A stretch of 64,000 nucleotides of DNA from an uncultured Victivallaceae bacterium (GTDB lineage Bacteria > Verrucomicrobiota > Lentisphaeria > Victivallales > Victivallaceae): positions 186,001-250,000 of the forward strand of contig CALXXL010000001.1 in assembly GCA_944392655.1 (NCBI GenBank). Reading direction: 5' to 3'. Below the pieces are notes generated by a model. That model saw only the letters and a list, made by a program, of their open reading frames with translations. It had not been told where the DNA came from and did not search any database. Position numbers and translations under genes: made by a program. Below, piece after piece: positions 4,613 to 56,251 of this stretch (its first letter is position 1; every line of letters begins with the position of its first letter).

Positions 4613-5467
4613 ATGCGAAAACGTTTTACACTTCTGGAGATGGTGGTCGCCATGCTGATAGTTGGCGTGCTGCTAAGTCTGTCGCTGACTGGGCTGGAGA
4701 AGCTGGCGACGGCTGAGGCTATGCAGACGGCGGCCACTCGCCTGGAGAATGCTGCCTTAAAGGCGCGTTCCAAAGCGATTATAGAGGGGCGGGAGCAGGA
4801 CACCTATGTTGCATTGCTTTTGCCGGACAGCAATGAATTCATCAATGTTGGTGGATTGCCATGCCGCAGTTACCGTATCTGTACGGTCAAGAAAAAGGAT
4901 ACTGGCAGCAGTATCTCTTATGAATTTAAGGGATGGATCAAGAATGAAGACTGGCAGACGTTGGGTACTGGTATTGTAATTGTTGGTGCGAGTACGGCGC
5001 AGCGTGCAAACCTTGCGGTTGATGATGAGATTGATGAAGATAACAGCTATAAAATTGAGAATGAATCTTCCGGTAAAAAGCTTAAAGGGGTTTCTGTTCT
5101 GCGTGAAACAAAATTCTACGATTATAATGATGGAGAATACGGTGAAGAGGTATCTTCTTCCGATCTTTCGGCGGTGAGTGACATCGGTTATATCACAGGA
5201 GTACCGGGTGCTCCTGCTAATGGCTGTCCAGGTATAGTGTTCAATAAATACGGTAATATTGTGAATGCGGTGAATCTGTGTCTGGTTTTGGCGGAGGGCA
5301 ATGTACTGGAGTCGAAATACAGCAACAGTGAAAATGTTTACCGTTTCCGCAATGTATTTACAGATACCAAGAATGGAGATCTTTATTTAGGCAACTGGGT
5401 GGAGATAACGTTCAATATATTTACCGGTCGTCCCAACATCAGGATGATGGGTGAAGATCAGCCGTAA
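4613..5467 (+). CDS. GspH-like minor pseudopilin
   Basis: Prepilin motif RFTLLEMVVAMLIVGVLLSL with Glu at +5 and Arg at -1. Just after the helix, the run of Ala/Arg residues through RLENAALKARSKAIIEGRE matches the GspH/FimT region that packs behind the helix. I place the start at ATG 4613, giving the 4-residue leader MRKR as in its neighbours; an in-frame TTG at 4598 would give a longer, unlikely leader. Length is then 284 residues, larger than typical GspH (about 170-200). Third gene of the operon, in the H position of the usual G-H-I-J-K order. Confidence 0.72.
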   Translation: MRKRFTLLEMVVAMLIVGVLLSLSLTGLEKLATAEAMQTAATRLENAALKARSKAIIEGREQDTYVALLLPDSNEFINVGGLPCRSYRICTVKKKDTGSSISYEFKGWIKNEDWQTLGTGIVIVGASTAQRANLAVDDEIDEDNSYKIENESSGKKLKGVSVLRETKFYDYNDGEYGEEVSSSDLSAVSDIGYITGVPGAPANGCPGIVFNKYGNIVNAVNLCLVLAEGNVLESKYSNSENVYRFRNVFTDTKNGDLYLGNWVEITFNIFTGRPNIRMMGEDQP

Positions 5468-5482
5468 TTTGAGGAGTGTAAT

Positions 5483-6277
5483 ATGTTGCTGAGAAGGGTT
5501 CGTCATTATTTTAATATGATAGAGATCACTCTGGCGATAGCGATCATGGGGGTGGGGATAACCTCTCTGATGGTGTTGTTGCCGGTGGGGTTGCGTAATT
5601 CGCAGGAGAGTATATCGAACAACTACGTTCCGATAATTGCCGATTATTTTTACGGTCTGATCCGTACGGATCTGATATTCCGCCGTACAACTGAAAAGAT
5701 AAAACTTCCCGGTGTAAGTTCCGGCGAAGATGAATCTGGTTCGTCTGGTTCTGATGGGGTCAGCTATTATGAATATGAATCATTAACCAGCTCTGTAATT
5801 GATGATTTTGAAGAAAAGAGCAAATTGGATGAATTGCTTTCCGGTTCCGGTTCAGATGCCAATACGATATTGTCAATAGATGAGGATGGTGAAATAGAAA
5901 ATTTCACCTGGATGTTTGATTGGATTACAGCCGGCTCAGACAACGAGTTGGAAATAGACACAGATGGTGACAATAAATTGTCCGGTGTAAAAAATCAGCC
6001 GGTAAATATTTTCTATCACGATACAGATACCAGTGATTATGTCGTGGTTTTCCGTTCCAAATCGGAAACCGGTGATGGATTAACCTATGATATGGTTGAT
6101 TTTGCGGCGGAGGTAAAGCTTTTCAAAGATGATGCGCTGAATATCAATGGTGTTTCAAAAAGCAGTGATGATCTGATGCGTGTATATATGCACATATCCT
6201 GGCCGATAGAGCTTCCGCTGAGCAAGCGTCAGAGCCGGGTTTACGTATGGGATGTAGCCAGAGGAGTTTTTGAATAA
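5483..6277 (+). CDS. GspI/PilV-like minor pseudopilin
   Basis: 264 residues. The N-terminus has YFNMIEITLAIAIMGVGI: a divergent prepilin helix with Glu at +5 and Tyr at -1. The sequence after it (LMVLLPVGLRNSQES) fits GspI/PilV. The body is acidic and rich in Ser/Gly/Asp. GAGGAG ribosome site 7-12 bases before ATG. Its TAA shares the A of the next gene's ATG, so translation is coupled. Fourth gene, in the I position. Confidence 0.7.
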   Translation: MLLRRVRHYFNMIEITLAIAIMGVGITSLMVLLPVGLRNSQESISNNYVPIIADYFYGLIRTDLIFRRTTEKIKLPGVSSGEDESGSSGSDGVSYYEYESLTSSVIDDFEEKSKLDELLSGSGSDANTILSIDEDGEIENFTWMFDWITAGSDNELEIDTDGDNKLSGVKNQPVNIFYHDTDTSDYVVVFRSKSETGDGLTYDMVDFAAEVKLFKDDALNINGVSKSSDDLMRVYMHISWPIELPLSKRQSRVYVWDVARGVFE

Positions 6278-7233
6278 TGTTCTTGAGATTAAAAACAGCG
6301 AAGAGATATTTTTCTCTGGTTGAACTGATGGTGGTAATCGGGCTCTTCTCGTTTTTCATAGTTATACTGACGCAGTTTCTGTTAAAGGCTACGGAATTGT
6401 GGCGTTATACCGAGAGTGAGACAGAGATCAATGTTCAGGCGCAGACGATATTTGCTACGATGGACAATTTATTTGAGCAGGTTTTTATTCCTGAAAAACT
6501 TCCGACATCGTCAACTGGTGAAGCCGTATCTGGCTTTGTAGCAGATTTGCAATTAAAGCCGAGTGGCGTTTCCGGGTCTGGATATTATTATTTGGATCCT
6601 ATTTCCTATGATCCTGATGACAATGAAAAGTGGTATGAAAATGCTCCTATGCTCGTTTTCCCGGTTGCCTCGGAGATGCGGCTGGGTAAGTCGGAGAGTA
6701 CGAACTTTTATATTGCCGCTATAATGCGCAACGCCAAGGATCAGTTAGTTTTGCGTACAATTGGCGACAAAGGTTTTGATTCGACTACTGACGGGTTGAA
6801 AAATCTGCTGGCGGCGGATCATGATAATCTGCTGAAAGCTTTCCGAGGTGATCCGGATAGTGACATAAGTCTGTCTTCCGGTGGGTCTGGTGCAGGTAGC
6901 GGTACTTATACAGATTCTTTAATTCAGGTTATTGCTGACAATGTGACGCAGTTTACCGTTTATCCTATGGTAAGTCTGCGGGAAGATGCGGATGATACGC
7001 TGGATCCTAACGATAAATTTGGTCTTATTCCGGTCTCGCCTGTGCCTGATTCGGTAACGGCCGCCCATCCGTTGATGGGGGTGCAGGTTGAATTTTCGTT
7101 GCTCAGTCGTGATGATTATGACACATGGAATTCTATGTGGGTGGATCGTGAAAACAAACCGGAACCGGACGCGGCCAAGTCTTTCCGGCGTTTGCATGAA
7201 AAGACATTCAGCCGGATATTTGTGTTGAGATGA
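6277..7233 (+). CDS. GspJ/PilW-like minor pseudopilin
   Basis: 318 residues starting with an 11-residue leader and YFSLVELMVVIGLFSFFIVI: prepilin helix with Glu at +5 and Tyr at -1. The helix continues into TQFLLKATELWRYTESE and an Ala/Gln/Met stretch typical of GspJ/PilW. Overlaps the upstream stop by one base (TAATG). Fifth gene of the operon, in the J position. Ser/Gly-rich linkers (for example near residues 203-212) separate beta-rich segments. Confidence 0.7.
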   Translation: MFLRLKTAKRYFSLVELMVVIGLFSFFIVILTQFLLKATELWRYTESETEINVQAQTIFATMDNLFEQVFIPEKLPTSSTGEAVSGFVADLQLKPSGVSGSGYYYLDPISYDPDDNEKWYENAPMLVFPVASEMRLGKSESTNFYIAAIMRNAKDQLVLRTIGDKGFDSTTDGLKNLLAADHDNLLKAFRGDPDSDISLSSGGSGAGSGTYTDSLIQVIADNVTQFTVYPMVSLREDADDTLDPNDKFGLIPVSPVPDSVTAAHPLMGVQVEFSLLSRDDYDTWNSMWVDRENKPEPDAAKSFRRLHEKTFSRIFVLR

Positions 7234-51445: not shown

Positions 51446-52717
51446 TTACTGATAAAACCGCCACTCGGCCATATTGATCAGCTTGCGGTATTTTCTGGAC
51501 GCTTCTGCGGCGAACACCATCAAATGCGATTCGAGAGAAACCTCTCCGTCGGAGAGGATGAGAGATGGGTCGTTATTGCGTACCGCGTCGACGAATGCTT
51601 CGAGGCATCCTTTATCTCCGCCTCCGTGATGTTTGGTCACGGTGCCGTTATCCGGTTCGATATTGATTTCGGAGGTACATTCGCGCAGATACGAGTATAC
51701 GACGATCTTGTTGCCGTCGCATGAAATCTCGCCGTGAGTTCCGAATATTATAGTTTGTCTGTCGCGGTATTGAGAGCATCCGACGAGGGAGAAACATGCG
51801 GTAGCGCCGCCGTCGAACTCCATATTTACGACCTGATGATCAGCTACGTCGTTATCACATGCGAATACACATCTTCCGTATGGGCCTGACCGCATAGCCT
51901 CCATAATGCTTTCGGGGGTCAGGGTATCGGTAACTGATTCGAGATAGTTATCGATATGCCCCTCTTTCAGCCGTTTGAGATAGAATCCCGGAGCGTAATA
52001 AGGGCATGACTCAGCGAGTTTGCAGTCGAGACATCTTTCTGCTGCGCCTTCGGGCATATTTTCTCTTTTAAAGAACATGAGTGACCCGAAAGAAGAGATA
52101 GCGGTGCAGCTTTTCTGCATAATAAAAGATATCCAGTCGAGGTCGTGAATAGATTTAGCGAGTAGAACGTTGGAAGATTTATCTTCGCGGTTCCAGTTTC
52201 CGCGGACGTATGAGTGAGCGTATCTCCAGTGACCTACTGGTTCGAGGTGCTGTATGGATGTAATTTCGCCGATAGCGCCTGAATTGATAATCCGTCTGAG
52301 TATACCGGTATACTCAGCGTATCGCATAACGTGGCATACTTCGAGCATGACGTGATGTCTTTCTGCGGCCGCGACGATGCGGTAACATCCTTCGATATCA
52401 GGAGCGAGTGGTTTTTCGATCAGGATATGATATCCCAGTTCGGCGAAAGCCTCGGCTGGTTCGACGTGCATTCTATCCTGGGTACCGATGATGACGGCGT
52501 CGGCGAATTTTGGTAAGCTTGCGGCCTCTTTCCAATCAGCGAATCGGTATTTTTGCGGGACGTTGTGTTCATCCGCGATGCGGTTGCGGAAGAACTCGCG
52601 AGGTTCAGCTACGCCGACGATTTCGGCCTTATCGGATATAAGTTTAACGAGTTTGGCATAGATAGTGGATCGTCCGCCTGCGCCGATGACCAGAATAGAT
52701 ACCTTTTTTCCGTTCAC
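51446..52717 (-). CDS. Gfo/Idh/MocA-family oxidoreductase with Cys cluster
   Basis: 423 residues, NAD(P)-binding domain with VIGAGGRSTIYAK at the start and the sugar-dehydrogenase EKP motif in HILIEKPLAP. Central CLDCKLAESCPYY (C-x2-C-x5-C) is an extra metal-binding-like patch seen in some Gfo/Idh proteins from polysaccharide-degrading bacteria. Oxidises or epimerises a sugar-like substrate; not specified. Convergent with the Aas-like gene, 8 bases apart. Confidence 0.82.
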   Translation of the reverse strand: MNGKKVSILVIGAGGRSTIYAKLVKLISDKAEIVGVAEPREFFRNRIADEHNVPQKYRFADWKEAASLPKFADAVIIGTQDRMHVEPAEAFAELGYHILIEKPLAPDIEGCYRIVAAAERHHVMLEVCHVMRYAEYTGILRRIINSGAIGEITSIQHLEPVGHWRYAHSYVRGNWNREDKSSNVLLAKSIHDLDWISFIMQKSCTAISSFGSLMFFKRENMPEGAAERCLDCKLAESCPYYAPGFYLKRLKEGHIDNYLESVTDTLTPESIMEAMRSGPYGRCVFACDNDVADHQVVNMEFDGGATACFSLVGCSQYRDRQTIIFGTHGEISCDGNKIVVYSYLRECTSEINIEPDNGTVTKHHGGGDKGCLEAFVDAVRNNDPSLILSDGEVSLESHLMVFAAEASRKYRKLINMAEWRFYQ

Positions 52718-52948: not shown

Positions 52949-53025
52949 GGGCGTATAGCTCAGTTGGTTAGAGCGCCACGTTGACATCGTGGAGGTCACA
53001 GATTCGAGTTCTGTTACGCCCACCA
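52949..53025 (+). tRNA. tRNA-Val (anticodon GAC)
   Basis: 77 bases with encoded CCA. Acceptor GGGCGTA pairs with TACGCCC; D arm GCTC/GAGC, anticodon arm CCACG-TTGACAT-CGTGG (anticodon GAC), T arm ACAGA-TTCGAGT-TCTGT. No intron or variable arm. It lies directly at the edge of the AT-rich island, a frequent insertion site for integrative elements. Confidence 0.97.
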
Positions 53026-53038
53026 TTTGAAGATTTGA

Positions 53039-53066
53039 GCCGACCGTTAATCCGGTCGGTTTTTTC
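53039..53066 (+). terminator. Terminator after tRNA-Val
   Basis: CCGACCG (53040-53046) pairs with CGGTCGG (53053-53059), followed by seven T. Ends the tRNA transcript. Confidence 0.85.
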
Positions 53067-53088
53067 GTTTTGTGGTAAATTTCAGCAC

Positions 53089-53108
53089 AATTCGCGTTTT
53101 TGCGAATT
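53089..53108. repeat. AT-rich inverted repeat near the left edge of the island
   Basis: AATTCGC (53089-53095) and GCGAATT (53102-53108) form a 7-bp hairpin; directly after it GTTTTG/CAAAAC (53111-53123) forms a second short inverted repeat. Their role is unknown. Confidence 0.5.
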
Positions 53109-53153
53109 TCGTTTTGTCAAAACAAAAGATATTTACTCAAAAAAAACAAAACG

Positions 53154-53194
53154 GAGCAAGATCTTTGCAATGAAAGAACTTGCTTCATTTTTTT
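53154..53194 (+). terminator. Terminator-like hairpin in the island
   Basis: AGCAAG-A-TCTTT (53155-53166) pairs with AAAGA-A-CTTGCT (53173-53184) around GCAATG, with an adjacent T-run from 53187. A good rho-independent signal although no gene upstream ends near it. It could end read-through from the tRNA promoter, or belong to an unseen small RNA. Confidence 0.6.
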
Positions 53195-53599
53195 ACAGGG
53201 ATATTATTTGAAAAAGGAATTGTATTTCGGAAAAATCAATCCCTTTTCTGATCGATCTCAAGGAGAGGCATAGGGAATTGTGATTTCAGAATTAATCGTG
53301 AAACATCTTTTTCTGTTCCGTCCATGAGTTGGGGAAACATTGATGTATACTTTCCTGTATTCATTCCCACTTGCTAAAAGGGAAAATGTTGCAGGATAAT
53401 AAAAATATTTCAAACCAAAAGAAATGTCAGATAGTGTGTAGCTACTACATTTTAATCCTTCGGAAGTTATCTATAGTACCTGAATTCTAATAAAAGAGAA
53501 CGACTTTTTCTCAAAATAAAATGTCTGTATTTTTATCAAGAATCAAAAAACGTTCCGAAAAATAGTTATATTGCCGACATTGAAAAAAAATACGTTATG
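53195..53599. other. AT-rich gene-free stretch
   Basis: About 400 bases without a credible reading frame, tRNA or conserved motif. Base composition is clearly AT-rich. Nothing resembling an integrase remnant or a copy of the tRNA-Val 3' end was found. It separates the tRNA from the 3' end of the two-gene unit. Confidence 0.6.
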
Positions 53600-54019
53600 T
53601 TATTCCGCAATTTTTTTAAGAGCTCGTTCTTTTTGTAAAAGCAGCTGCAAATATGTATTTTCATCTTCAGTACGTTTTTGCTTTTGTTCTAATCGTTTTA
53701 TCTCTTTCTCATACTCATCAAGGAGTTTTTTGTATTCATCTCTTTGCTGCTCAAAAAGATTTTTTTGAGTCAGAAAACGATCAGCCAACTCAAAAAGCTT
53801 CTTTTCATATTCTGCAGATGCGGTGACATAACCTTCTTTTTTCCCATCAAGTTTTCCTGCTTTATAAACAGAAGCTGTAAAAGGATTGTCTTCTTGTATT
53901 TCACGACGTCTATTTTCTTTTATGCCATCAACTATTCCGTGATCAGCTATATCCTTAATAAGTTCCACTGCTCTAACGTCAGGTAGCAGTGTTTTTATGA
54001 TAAATTTTCCGAATCCCAT
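53600..54019 (-). CDS. Coiled-coil protein of the AT-rich two-gene unit
   Basis: 139 residues. N-terminal helices (KFIIKTLLPDVRAVELIKDI), a Gly-Lys-Asp-rich turn near residues 55-64, then a Glu/Lys/Gln-rich coiled coil from about 68 to the end. No signal peptide. Start ATG 54019 has a strong ribosome site (AAAGGAGAG) inside the 3' end of the upstream gene, with a 25-base overlap, so both are made from one mRNA. Family unrecognised. Lower GC than the rest of the window. Confidence 0.75.
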   Translation of the reverse strand: MGFGKFIIKTLLPDVRAVELIKDIADHGIVDGIKENRRREIQEDNPFTASVYKAGKLDGKKEGYVTASAEYEKKLFELADRFLTQKNLFEQQRDEYKKLLDEYEKEIKRLEQKQKRTEDENTYLQLLLQKERALKKIAE

Positions 54020-55239
54020 ACTGAACTCTCCTTTAGATTAAGTTGTTCGCCTTGAATCATTTTGTTGAAACTACCCAAGATAAATTCTTCCTTTACTTTT
54101 GCAATAAAATCATGATCAGTCATTAGCCGATAAAGAGTCACTGCAATCCCTCCGAAATCAAGATGTTTCCAAGCATCTGCTTTTCCCATATGGGCACTTA
54201 CAGCAACATAAATAACATTACTTGTAGATGCTATCAAATTTGAATAAAGGAGCAGTTTTCTAGTTTTTACCTCGTATACTTCCCTACTGACATATTTATC
54301 ATGATCATAGAATAAACCATGTATCAAACCAATAATCATGTTGATTATTATTGCATATGCGGCCTGTTTTCCGATTGTTTGCAAATCTCTTGTCAAACAT
54401 AAAGAATCATACTGTTCCAAATAAAGCTTGCCCGCAAGATCTTCTGAAAACACGGATAATGCGGGGATTGGCAAACCCATTTTAGTAAACTTATCAGATT
54501 CCAAGTGTACAGCTTCTGCAAAAATGGCAGCAGGAAGTCTCAATTTATCTTCCTTAAAACTGAAGTAAGCATCTTTGAAGCCATGGATCAATGTTGTTTC
54601 TTTAAGGAAATAATGCGTGTTTCTATCAATATCGAAGGTACGCAAAGTATTCATTGTACATGTATCAGTCATAATATTCATTGTGCCGAATACCCAACCT
54701 AAAATAGGATCATGGCCTAATGTTTTCATTCGATGATTCCGGCCATTCAAATTTAATCCGAATGCCGCAGAACCTTTTATTGCGTCGTATGGTACAGAAC
54801 TGGATATGATTTCCATCCATGTTTTATAAGATTTTTCACTTTGTTTAATATCATAACCGCTTTTAGGATCATCGGGATTTCGGAGATGTTTTTTTCTAAA
54901 CTCAGCATTTCGTTCTTTAACACGATCTTTAATTGATTTGTCATTTTCTGCCAACCTTTGGTCTTGATCAGACGATTCTCCAAAATGAGAAGTCATGTCA
55001 ATAATAACCCAGCGAAGAACTTGCAATGCTGTTGCAAAGAACAGAAATACGCAATCGGTTTTATTGAAACCAGTTTGTTTTTCGAATTCATCTTCCAAAT
55101 TGTTCAGCAGAGATTCTGCATTTTTTGCAACGTCTGCAACGCGCAAAGATTCATCTGCAATGAGTTGCATATTATCTAAGATATTTTGTGTATTTTCGTA
55201 AATAAAAGCCCGCTTTTTTCTCAAATCATCCAAAGACAT
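53995..55239 (-). CDS. Membrane protein of the AT-rich two-gene unit
   Basis: 414 residues. N-terminal helical region (about 1-60), hydrophobic segments near 63-82, 290-311 and 329-349 and a central soluble part with GHDPILGWVFGTMNIMT (175-191), a clearly conserved-looking Gly/Asp/Trp motif. AGGA ribosome site before ATG 55239. Family unrecognised. The pairing with a downstream coiled-coil gene in an AT-rich island next to a tRNA fits an accessory, perhaps defence-related, cassette; that is inference. Confidence 0.8.
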   Translation of the reverse strand: MSLDDLRKKRAFIYENTQNILDNMQLIADESLRVADVAKNAESLLNNLEDEFEKQTGFNKTDCVFLFFATALQVLRWVIIDMTSHFGESSDQDQRLAENDKSIKDRVKERNAEFRKKHLRNPDDPKSGYDIKQSEKSYKTWMEIISSSVPYDAIKGSAAFGLNLNGRNHRMKTLGHDPILGWVFGTMNIMTDTCTMNTLRTFDIDRNTHYFLKETTLIHGFKDAYFSFKEDKLRLPAAIFAEAVHLESDKFTKMGLPIPALSVFSEDLAGKLYLEQYDSLCLTRDLQTIGKQAAYAIIINMIIGLIHGLFYDHDKYVSREVYEVKTRKLLLYSNLIASTSNVIYVAVSAHMGKADAWKHLDFGGIAVTLYRLMTDHDFIAKVKEEFILGSFNKMIQGEQLNLKESSVWDSENLS

Positions 55240-55621
55240 ATATTATTGTCCTTTTTTGCTAAACTCATAGATAATTGCGTCTCTATTCTAGGTTGAACAA
55301 CTTTTATTAAAAAATTGACATAAATGATTTTATTCTACTATATCACATCGCTTTTCGATTGCAAATTCCGGAATAGATTTTGTCCGGTGTTCGATATTGG
55401 AGTGTAAAATGAATTCGTTTTTTTGGGGGGTAAAAATACAGACTCCTCTGCAGTTTGTGTGAAAAAAAGGGGGGTAAGAGAATATCCAGTTCCTTTGTGC
55501 AACCAAGAGGCAATCCGGAATAATCGGTCTCGCAACTATCGATTATGCCATTTTTTTATTTTTTGTTGCTGGAGAGAATTGTCTCTAAAAAGTTGTGACA
55601 GTGATATTGCGGTTCCGGAGC
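55240..55621. other. Gene-free stretch at the right edge of the island
   Basis: Mixed sequence without a credible gene; contains the upstream region of the 53995-55239 gene on the minus strand. Two G-runs of six (near 55426 and 55474) occur within a short T/A-rich context. Composition returns to the window average near 55600. No promoter of clear quality for the minus-strand genes was found. Confidence 0.5.
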
Positions 55622-55721: not shown

Positions 55722-55973
55722 ATGAGAACTATATTAAAGAAGCGTGCGGTTATGATGGAATATGTCATTATAGCTGTGCTGATAGCAGCTGCGGTAGTGG
55801 TAGCAGTTATTATGTTTGGCAAGAATGTTTCCAAGGAGATGAATGTTGCCACGCAGGCCATGAGTGATGCCAAGGGGGCCGAGACTTCGCAGAAAGATGT
55901 TCAGACTGGCACCACCAGTGATATCAAGAAGGCCAATGAGCACGAAAAAGCGATGCACAATTACGACAAGTAA
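55722..55973 (+). CDS. flp: Flp-like major pilin, copy 1
   Basis: 83 residues, a short Flp-type pilin with a class III leader: MRTILKKR, then A-V-M-M-E-Y with Glu at +5 and Tyr at +6, and a hydrophobic helix VIIAVLIAAAVVVAVIMFG. The C-terminal third is charged and ends EHEKAMHNYDK. No Gly precedes the cleavage site. Ribosome site AGGGGAT. Nearly identical N- and C-termini to copy 2, 26 bases downstream. Would be processed by the adjacent prepilin peptidase. Confidence 0.85.
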   Translation: MRTILKKRAVMMEYVIIAVLIAAAVVVAVIMFGKNVSKEMNVATQAMSDAKGAETSQKDVQTGTTSDIKKANEHEKAMHNYDK

Positions 55974-55999: not shown

Positions 56000-56251
56000 A
56001 TGAGAGTCATATTAAAGAAGCGTGCGGTTATGATGGAATATGTCATCATAGCTGTGCTGATAGCGGCTGCGGTAGTAGTCGCGGTAATTATGTTTGGCAA
56101 GAACGTCTCGCATGAGATGAATGTTGCGACCAAGTCCATGAGTGATGCCAAAGGTGCGGAGAATTACCAGGGTGAGCTCAAGAGTAACTCAGCCAGTGAC
56201 ATCAAAAAGGCTAACGAGCACGAAAAAGCGATGCACAATTACGACAAGTGA
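56000..56251 (+). CDS. flp: Flp-like major pilin, copy 2
   Basis: 83 residues, paralogue of copy 1: only 2 of the first 44 residues differ, and the last 18 are identical. The middle (about 45-65) differs: the first copy has AETSQKDVQTGTT there, this one AENYQGELKSNSA. A terminator after it limits expression of downstream genes. Divergence confined to the exposed middle suggests antigenic or partner variation, which is inference. Confidence 0.85.
   Translation: MRVILKKRAVMMEYVIIAVLIAAAVVVAVIMFGKNVSHEMNVATKSMSDAKGAENYQGELKSNSASDIKKANEHEKAMHNYDK

Follow-up and report, generated by a model that had tools for sequence, protein, structure and literature searches.

Bunzi is an anti-phage defence system formed by the two proteins BnzA and BnzB (Millman et al. 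2022, as cited in PMC10952713 and PMC11206119). A 2026 review lists its mechanism as unknown (PMC12926258), and the literature we searched contained no described mechanism. Separately, an influence of the plasmid pNP40 on phage DNA penetration has been reported (Garvey 1996, going by its title in the reference list of PMC9146914), an effect to which no gene is linked here. In this work we describe a minimal two-gene locus found in a 64-kb stretch of DNA (hereafter the window, the whole stretch that was analysed) from a 2.34-Mb draft genome (G000). One gene encodes a BnzB-like membrane protein, the other a short coiled-coil protein. The first-pass annotation of this locus knew no named system for it. 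This holds for the combination, which is absent from PADLOC, Pfam, NCBIfam and PHROGs, but not for the membrane protein, which belongs to the BnzB family of Bunzi. While that family is already known, its pairing with a short coiled-coil partner appears, by sequence comparison, to be new. The same pair is present in the mobile element of an unrelated bacterium, suggesting interchangeable partners for the membrane half of Bunzi-like defence.

Results

An AT-rich patch beside tRNA-Val

An oxidoreductase gene (51446-52717) and the Tad/Flp pilus genes (from 55722) enclose roughly 3 kb of AT-rich DNA, which contains a tRNA gene, two overlapping minus-strand genes and the relic of a transposase. Its features are:

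52949..53025, plus strand: tRNA-Val(GAC), neighbour of the AT-rich patch (ARAGORN)
53600..54019, minus strand: 139-aa partner with a C-terminal coiled coil (homology to the 143-aa ORF of the element L012; no BnzA match)
53807..53845, minus strand: shared adaptor motif GKKEGYVTASAEY, partner residues 59-71 (present in 8/8 partners of the inner BnzB branch)
53995..54019, minus strand: 25-base overlap of the 414-aa and 139-aa genes (ORF coordinates)
53995..55239, minus strand: bnzB-like gene for a 414-aa membrane protein (PADLOC BnzB, identity to relatives, 30-homologue alignment)
55276..55440, minus strand: relic of orfB (3' end), the transposase gene of an IS3-family element, located upstream of both genes (DNA and protein similarity)

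GC content is 0.33-0.36 across 53.0-55.5 kb versus 0.50 window-wide, and the GC3 values of the pair (0.29 and 0.21) are the lowest among the 54 ORFs of the window, the next lowest being 0.44. Coordinates, GC and GC3 thus bear out the first-pass description of an AT-rich patch carrying an overlapping minus-strand pair next to tRNA-Val(GAC). Its statement that the AT-richness begins directly after the tRNA needs correction, however, as the AT-rich DNA starts at about 52.74 kb, ahead of the tRNA, and flanks it on both sides. The strong ribosome site that had been noted for the 139-aa gene was found as the Shine-Dalgarno sequence AAAGGAGAG, and the overlap makes it likely that the two genes are translationally coupled.

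The IS3 relic is 73-76% identical in DNA to a fuller IS3-type copy of the same genome (G000:C19); the protein-level match, which includes an internal stop, gives 48% identity across 48 residues (E=1e-8). The fuller copy (L079, 1378-2552) comprises orfA- and orfB-like ORFs and adjoins a small GTPase-like gene. That the patch is horizontally acquired DNA is supported by base composition, by the IS3 relic and by the absence of the bnzB-like gene from G001, the only other genome of this genus, and from the other family genomes searched, in keeping with the earlier view of an accessory island. A more specific part of that view, insertion at the 3' end of the tRNA, received no support. No second copy of the tRNA-Val 3' end, as a direct repeat, exists within the 64-kb window, and the patch has no integrase gene, only the pair and the IS3 relic lying between tRNA-Val and the Tad pilus genes. 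The AT-rich DNA already begins ahead of the tRNA, so that it has no particular tie to the 3' end of that gene, and we found no evidence that this end had been the integration site. In relatives, the surroundings of tRNA-Val are not syntenic and hence provide no clean empty site; as far as these contexts can be compared, an AT-rich stretch at the same site is not common to them. The Tad pilus proteins are 85-89% identical in four relatives, with similarity starting at about 55740, and those copies do not stand beside tRNA-Val. The Tad cluster itself, common to other genera of the family and without a match in G001, opens with two Flp-type pilin genes duplicated in tandem (55722-55973 and 56000-56251, 84% identical).

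BnzB homology of the 414-aa protein

The PADLOC BnzB profile matches residues 91-397 of the 414-aa protein with E=4.2e-31, and likewise matches relatives from a Pontiellaceae bacterium (L003, 5.7e-32), from a mobile element that encodes a large serine recombinase (L012, 7.9e-25) and from the genome G277 (1.3e-27). The Pontiellaceae protein, from the same phylum, is the closest named relative (55% identity), and identity to the L012 protein is 46%. Neither the 414-aa nor the 139-aa protein has a family in Pfam, NCBIfam or PHROGs. The three hydrophobic segments seen at first pass were located at about residues 62-80, 293-311 and 329-347, and the accompanying motif, GHDPILGWVFGTMNIMT, is truly conserved in an alignment of 30 homologues. 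Across this alignment, which reaches down to about 18% identity, the invariant positions are D152, G166, H169, H176, P178, G181, H245, D249 and P259, a set that looks like a metal-binding or catalytic site.

The same residue order, D / HR / H / HxxxDxxTxxG, is found in the YdjM/DUF457 (PF04307) membrane hydrolases, and hhalign blindly aligns HxxxDxxT..GLP between the two, with E ~0.05 and a probability of 1%. The genome G000 has no PF04307 match, and the idea of a YdjM- or phospholipase-like BnzB received no significant backing from profile comparison or fold search. Structure models were obtained for the window BnzB (pLDDT 72) and for its relative L015 (pLDDT 85). The Foldseek search that the first-pass annotation had proposed returned no significant fold match for these models in the PDB (best E 0.18-1.7), and no significant relative of the window model was present among viral structures.

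A short partner conserved in a mobile element

The 139-aa protein shows a hydrophobic periodicity of 3.5 residues over residues 60-139 (p ~0.01), in agreement with the coiled-coil character first assigned to it. It gave no match to the PADLOC BnzA profile, and no BnzA was detectable anywhere in the whole genome G000. Weak coiled-coil matches to JetC, Nsp1_C and LegC2C7 were attributed to composition and set aside, and a search of plasmids and phages gave no homologues. The mobile element L012 carries the same two-gene pair in the same order, its partner being a 143-aa ORF (139 aa from an in-frame MGF start) with 43% full-length identity (tblastn E=1e-37). The window and L012 BnzB proteins, both with a short partner, are not sisters in the BnzB tree, the supported branches of which force at least two changes of partner type. 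Since the L012 homologue is full-length and the two BnzB proteins are not sisters, the short partner counts as a genuine protein that has been conserved, either exchanged or retained from an ancestor.

This conservation bears on whether the pair is the decayed remnant of a larger Bunzi-related operon, with the 139 residues left over from a longer GTPase- or TerB-type partner and the system dead or reduced. Such decay would fit the 575 bases downstream of the 139-aa ORF, which are AT-rich and hold no convincing gene, as well as the presence of the partner's motif at the start of the 575-aa GTPase of L003. Nevertheless, we regard it as improbable: a homologue of the same size, identical from end to end at the level given above, marks the short form as conserved, the downstream DNA holds no significant trace of a partner C-terminal domain (best tblastn E 0.05), and neither ORF is disrupted, each having a good ribosome site.

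A common motif in otherwise diverse partners

The partners of related BnzB proteins vary widely, and comprise a septin-like GTPase (L003), a dynamin (L004), a 205-aa helical protein (L005), a protein with EF-Tu domain III (L006, which is pNP40), a TerB-like protein (G037), an S1-domain protein (G277) and the coiled coils of the window and L012. Near the N terminus, all of the partners of the inner BnzB branch (8/8) carry GxxxGxxx[AFGS]xx[KED][YFIL], a pattern with a background rate of 1.3% in the first 130 residues of 915 proteins; it was defined after viewing seven of the sequences, and the eighth (G277), found later, fits it. Among partners of other BnzB branches, 8/9 are without the motif, the exception being one loose and probably accidental match in the BnzA of L005. 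The motif is also missing from the glycine-zipper-type partners of L011 and L013, two loci that lie deeper on the window-type side of the tree, and so is a mark of the inner branch with its eight BnzB proteins. What follows the motif differs from locus to locus: the pNP40 partner (5218-6678) ends in EF-Tu domain III (PF03143, E=7e-23), and the 616-aa G277 partner (L163 3822-5672) carries a hydrophobic helix at its N terminus and an S1 RNA-binding domain at its C terminus, with a Schlafen/AlbA_2 gene nearby. The motif would unite the unnamed plasmid loci of pNP40, pLLI11B and Eubacterium eligens into one family.

Distribution and links to phage defence

In a tree built without full canonical BnzB, the window-type branch is separated with 100/100 support from homologues on viral contigs, whose neighbours carry BnzA-like glycine-zipper genes. 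BnzB homologues also occur on Lactococcus and E. eligens plasmids, as well as in a small number of the phylum's genomes. A bnzB-like gene was found in 4/388 genomes of the phylum and, within its family, only in the source genome, the other family genomes searched, including G001, having none; these counts come from a non-exhaustive search, as the divergent BnzB of G344 was reached only via its BnzA match. As far as the searched genomes allow, the gene is not part of a fixed core set of the genus. The locus of G344 (L183 5088-7260), from the same taxonomic order as the window, encodes a Bunzi-like pair, an HTH/glycine-zipper protein with a BnzA match together with a BnzB; a gene that by eye resembles a tyrosine recombinase is about 1.8 kb away.

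The presence of several homologues on plasmids and integrated elements means that the pair may serve the biology of such elements instead of defence. More specifically, a BnzB-like membrane toxin with a small antitoxin could form a toxin-antitoxin-like or superinfection-exclusion module, serving element stability or the exclusion of competitors. Two overlapping genes, one for a membrane protein and one for a small charged protein, would suit such a module, as would the fact that relatives reside on plasmids and recombinase-bearing elements, among them pNP40 with its reported influence on phage DNA penetration. Yet the partners of relatives are often large multi-domain proteins (486-616 aa), unlike antitoxins, and the effector gene comes first in most loci; we consider this module unlikely, if the least so of the three alternatives weighed here.

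The neighbourhoods of relatives point instead to defence. On the Lactococcus plasmid pLLI11B, a window-type BnzB (L005:4001-5119) is followed after 177 bases, in the same orientation, by a complete canonical Bunzi (BnzA E=5e-128, BnzB E=3e-150), and the two together (L005 4001-8496) stand behind a WYL-domain gene. WYL-domain genes also flank the relatives in E. eligens, pNP40 and Pontiellaceae, and BrxR, a WYL family, is known to co-localise with phage-defence systems (PMC9122601). The accessory or defence role suggested at first pass appears likely in light of the BnzB homology, the WYL neighbours of relatives and the one adjoining canonical Bunzi, with the function itself deduced from these comparisons. 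TerB-like and dynamin-like proteins are also found among stress and membrane-remodelling genes, and the pair could accordingly be accessory outside defence, for example in membrane stress response or envelope maintenance. The patchy distribution, the acquired composition, the BnzB homology and the adjacency to canonical Bunzi and WYL regulators all speak against this, and we give it little credence.

Discussion

We interpret the pair as probably a Bunzi-related, acquired anti-phage module. The 414-aa protein would be an integral membrane effector of the BnzB family, and the 139-aa protein its dedicated cytosolic partner, acting as sensor or regulator. The helix with the GxxxGxxx[AFGS]xx[KED][YFIL] motif would be the partner's docking site for BnzB, and the partner's coiled coil may oligomerise or sense a phage-induced change. 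A trigger would then lead BnzB to stop the infection, either by damaging or depolarising the membrane or by blocking the entry of phage DNA. We infer the anti-phage function, the docking, the direction of signalling and the membrane damage from sequence; the homology, the recurrence of the pair in distant bacteria, the partner motif, the composition typical of acquired DNA and the patchy occurrence are observed directly.

A broader reading, which we put forward tentatively, is that BnzB is a membrane metal-site enzyme (D152, H169, H176, H245, D249) serving as a common effector, onto which sensor or decoy modules are swapped via one short adaptor helix. On this view, Bunzi would represent a single branch of a larger, modular superfamily of membrane immunity, with EF-Tu and S1 modules that might act as baits for phage attacks on translation. 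If so, the swappable modules would comprise the coiled coil of the window, EF-Tu domain III, S1, dynamin- and septin-like GTPases and TerB-like domains. For the anti-phage module proposed here, a common partner motif combined with exchangeable C-terminal domains provides a direct, testable idea of BnzB control, and a minimal Bunzi relative with a partner of 139 aa is a convenient object for dissecting BnzB.

Among known systems, Leo, defined by dynamin-like GTPases (PADLOC LeoA/LeoBC), is weakly matched by the GTPase partners of L003 and L004, but the window pair contains no GTPase. Closer are the loci of pNP40, pLLI11B and E. eligens (NC_012780), which combine a BnzB-like protein with a WYL regulator and a dynamin-like or EF-Tu-domain partner. 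They share the BnzB branch and the partner motif with the window pair, but differ in the C-terminal modules of their partners and in the WYL regulator, which the window lacks. Compared with Bunzi, the window partner is a 139-aa coiled-coil protein without BnzA profile match, TerB domain or glycine zipper, and the window BnzB is shorter (414 aa versus about 510 aa for the canonical protein), is about 29% identical over the best segment, and stands apart from the viral-contig homologues in the tree, which does not include full canonical BnzB. Because the partner is not BnzA, the activity of Bunzi cannot be transferred to the window pair, and because BnzA was looked for and is absent, the pair is best classed, on present comparisons, as Bunzi-related and not as a Bunzi member. 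What it has in common with Bunzi is a two-gene layout that includes a membrane protein, and a 414-aa protein of the BnzB family with the same invariant D, H, H, H..D and P residues.
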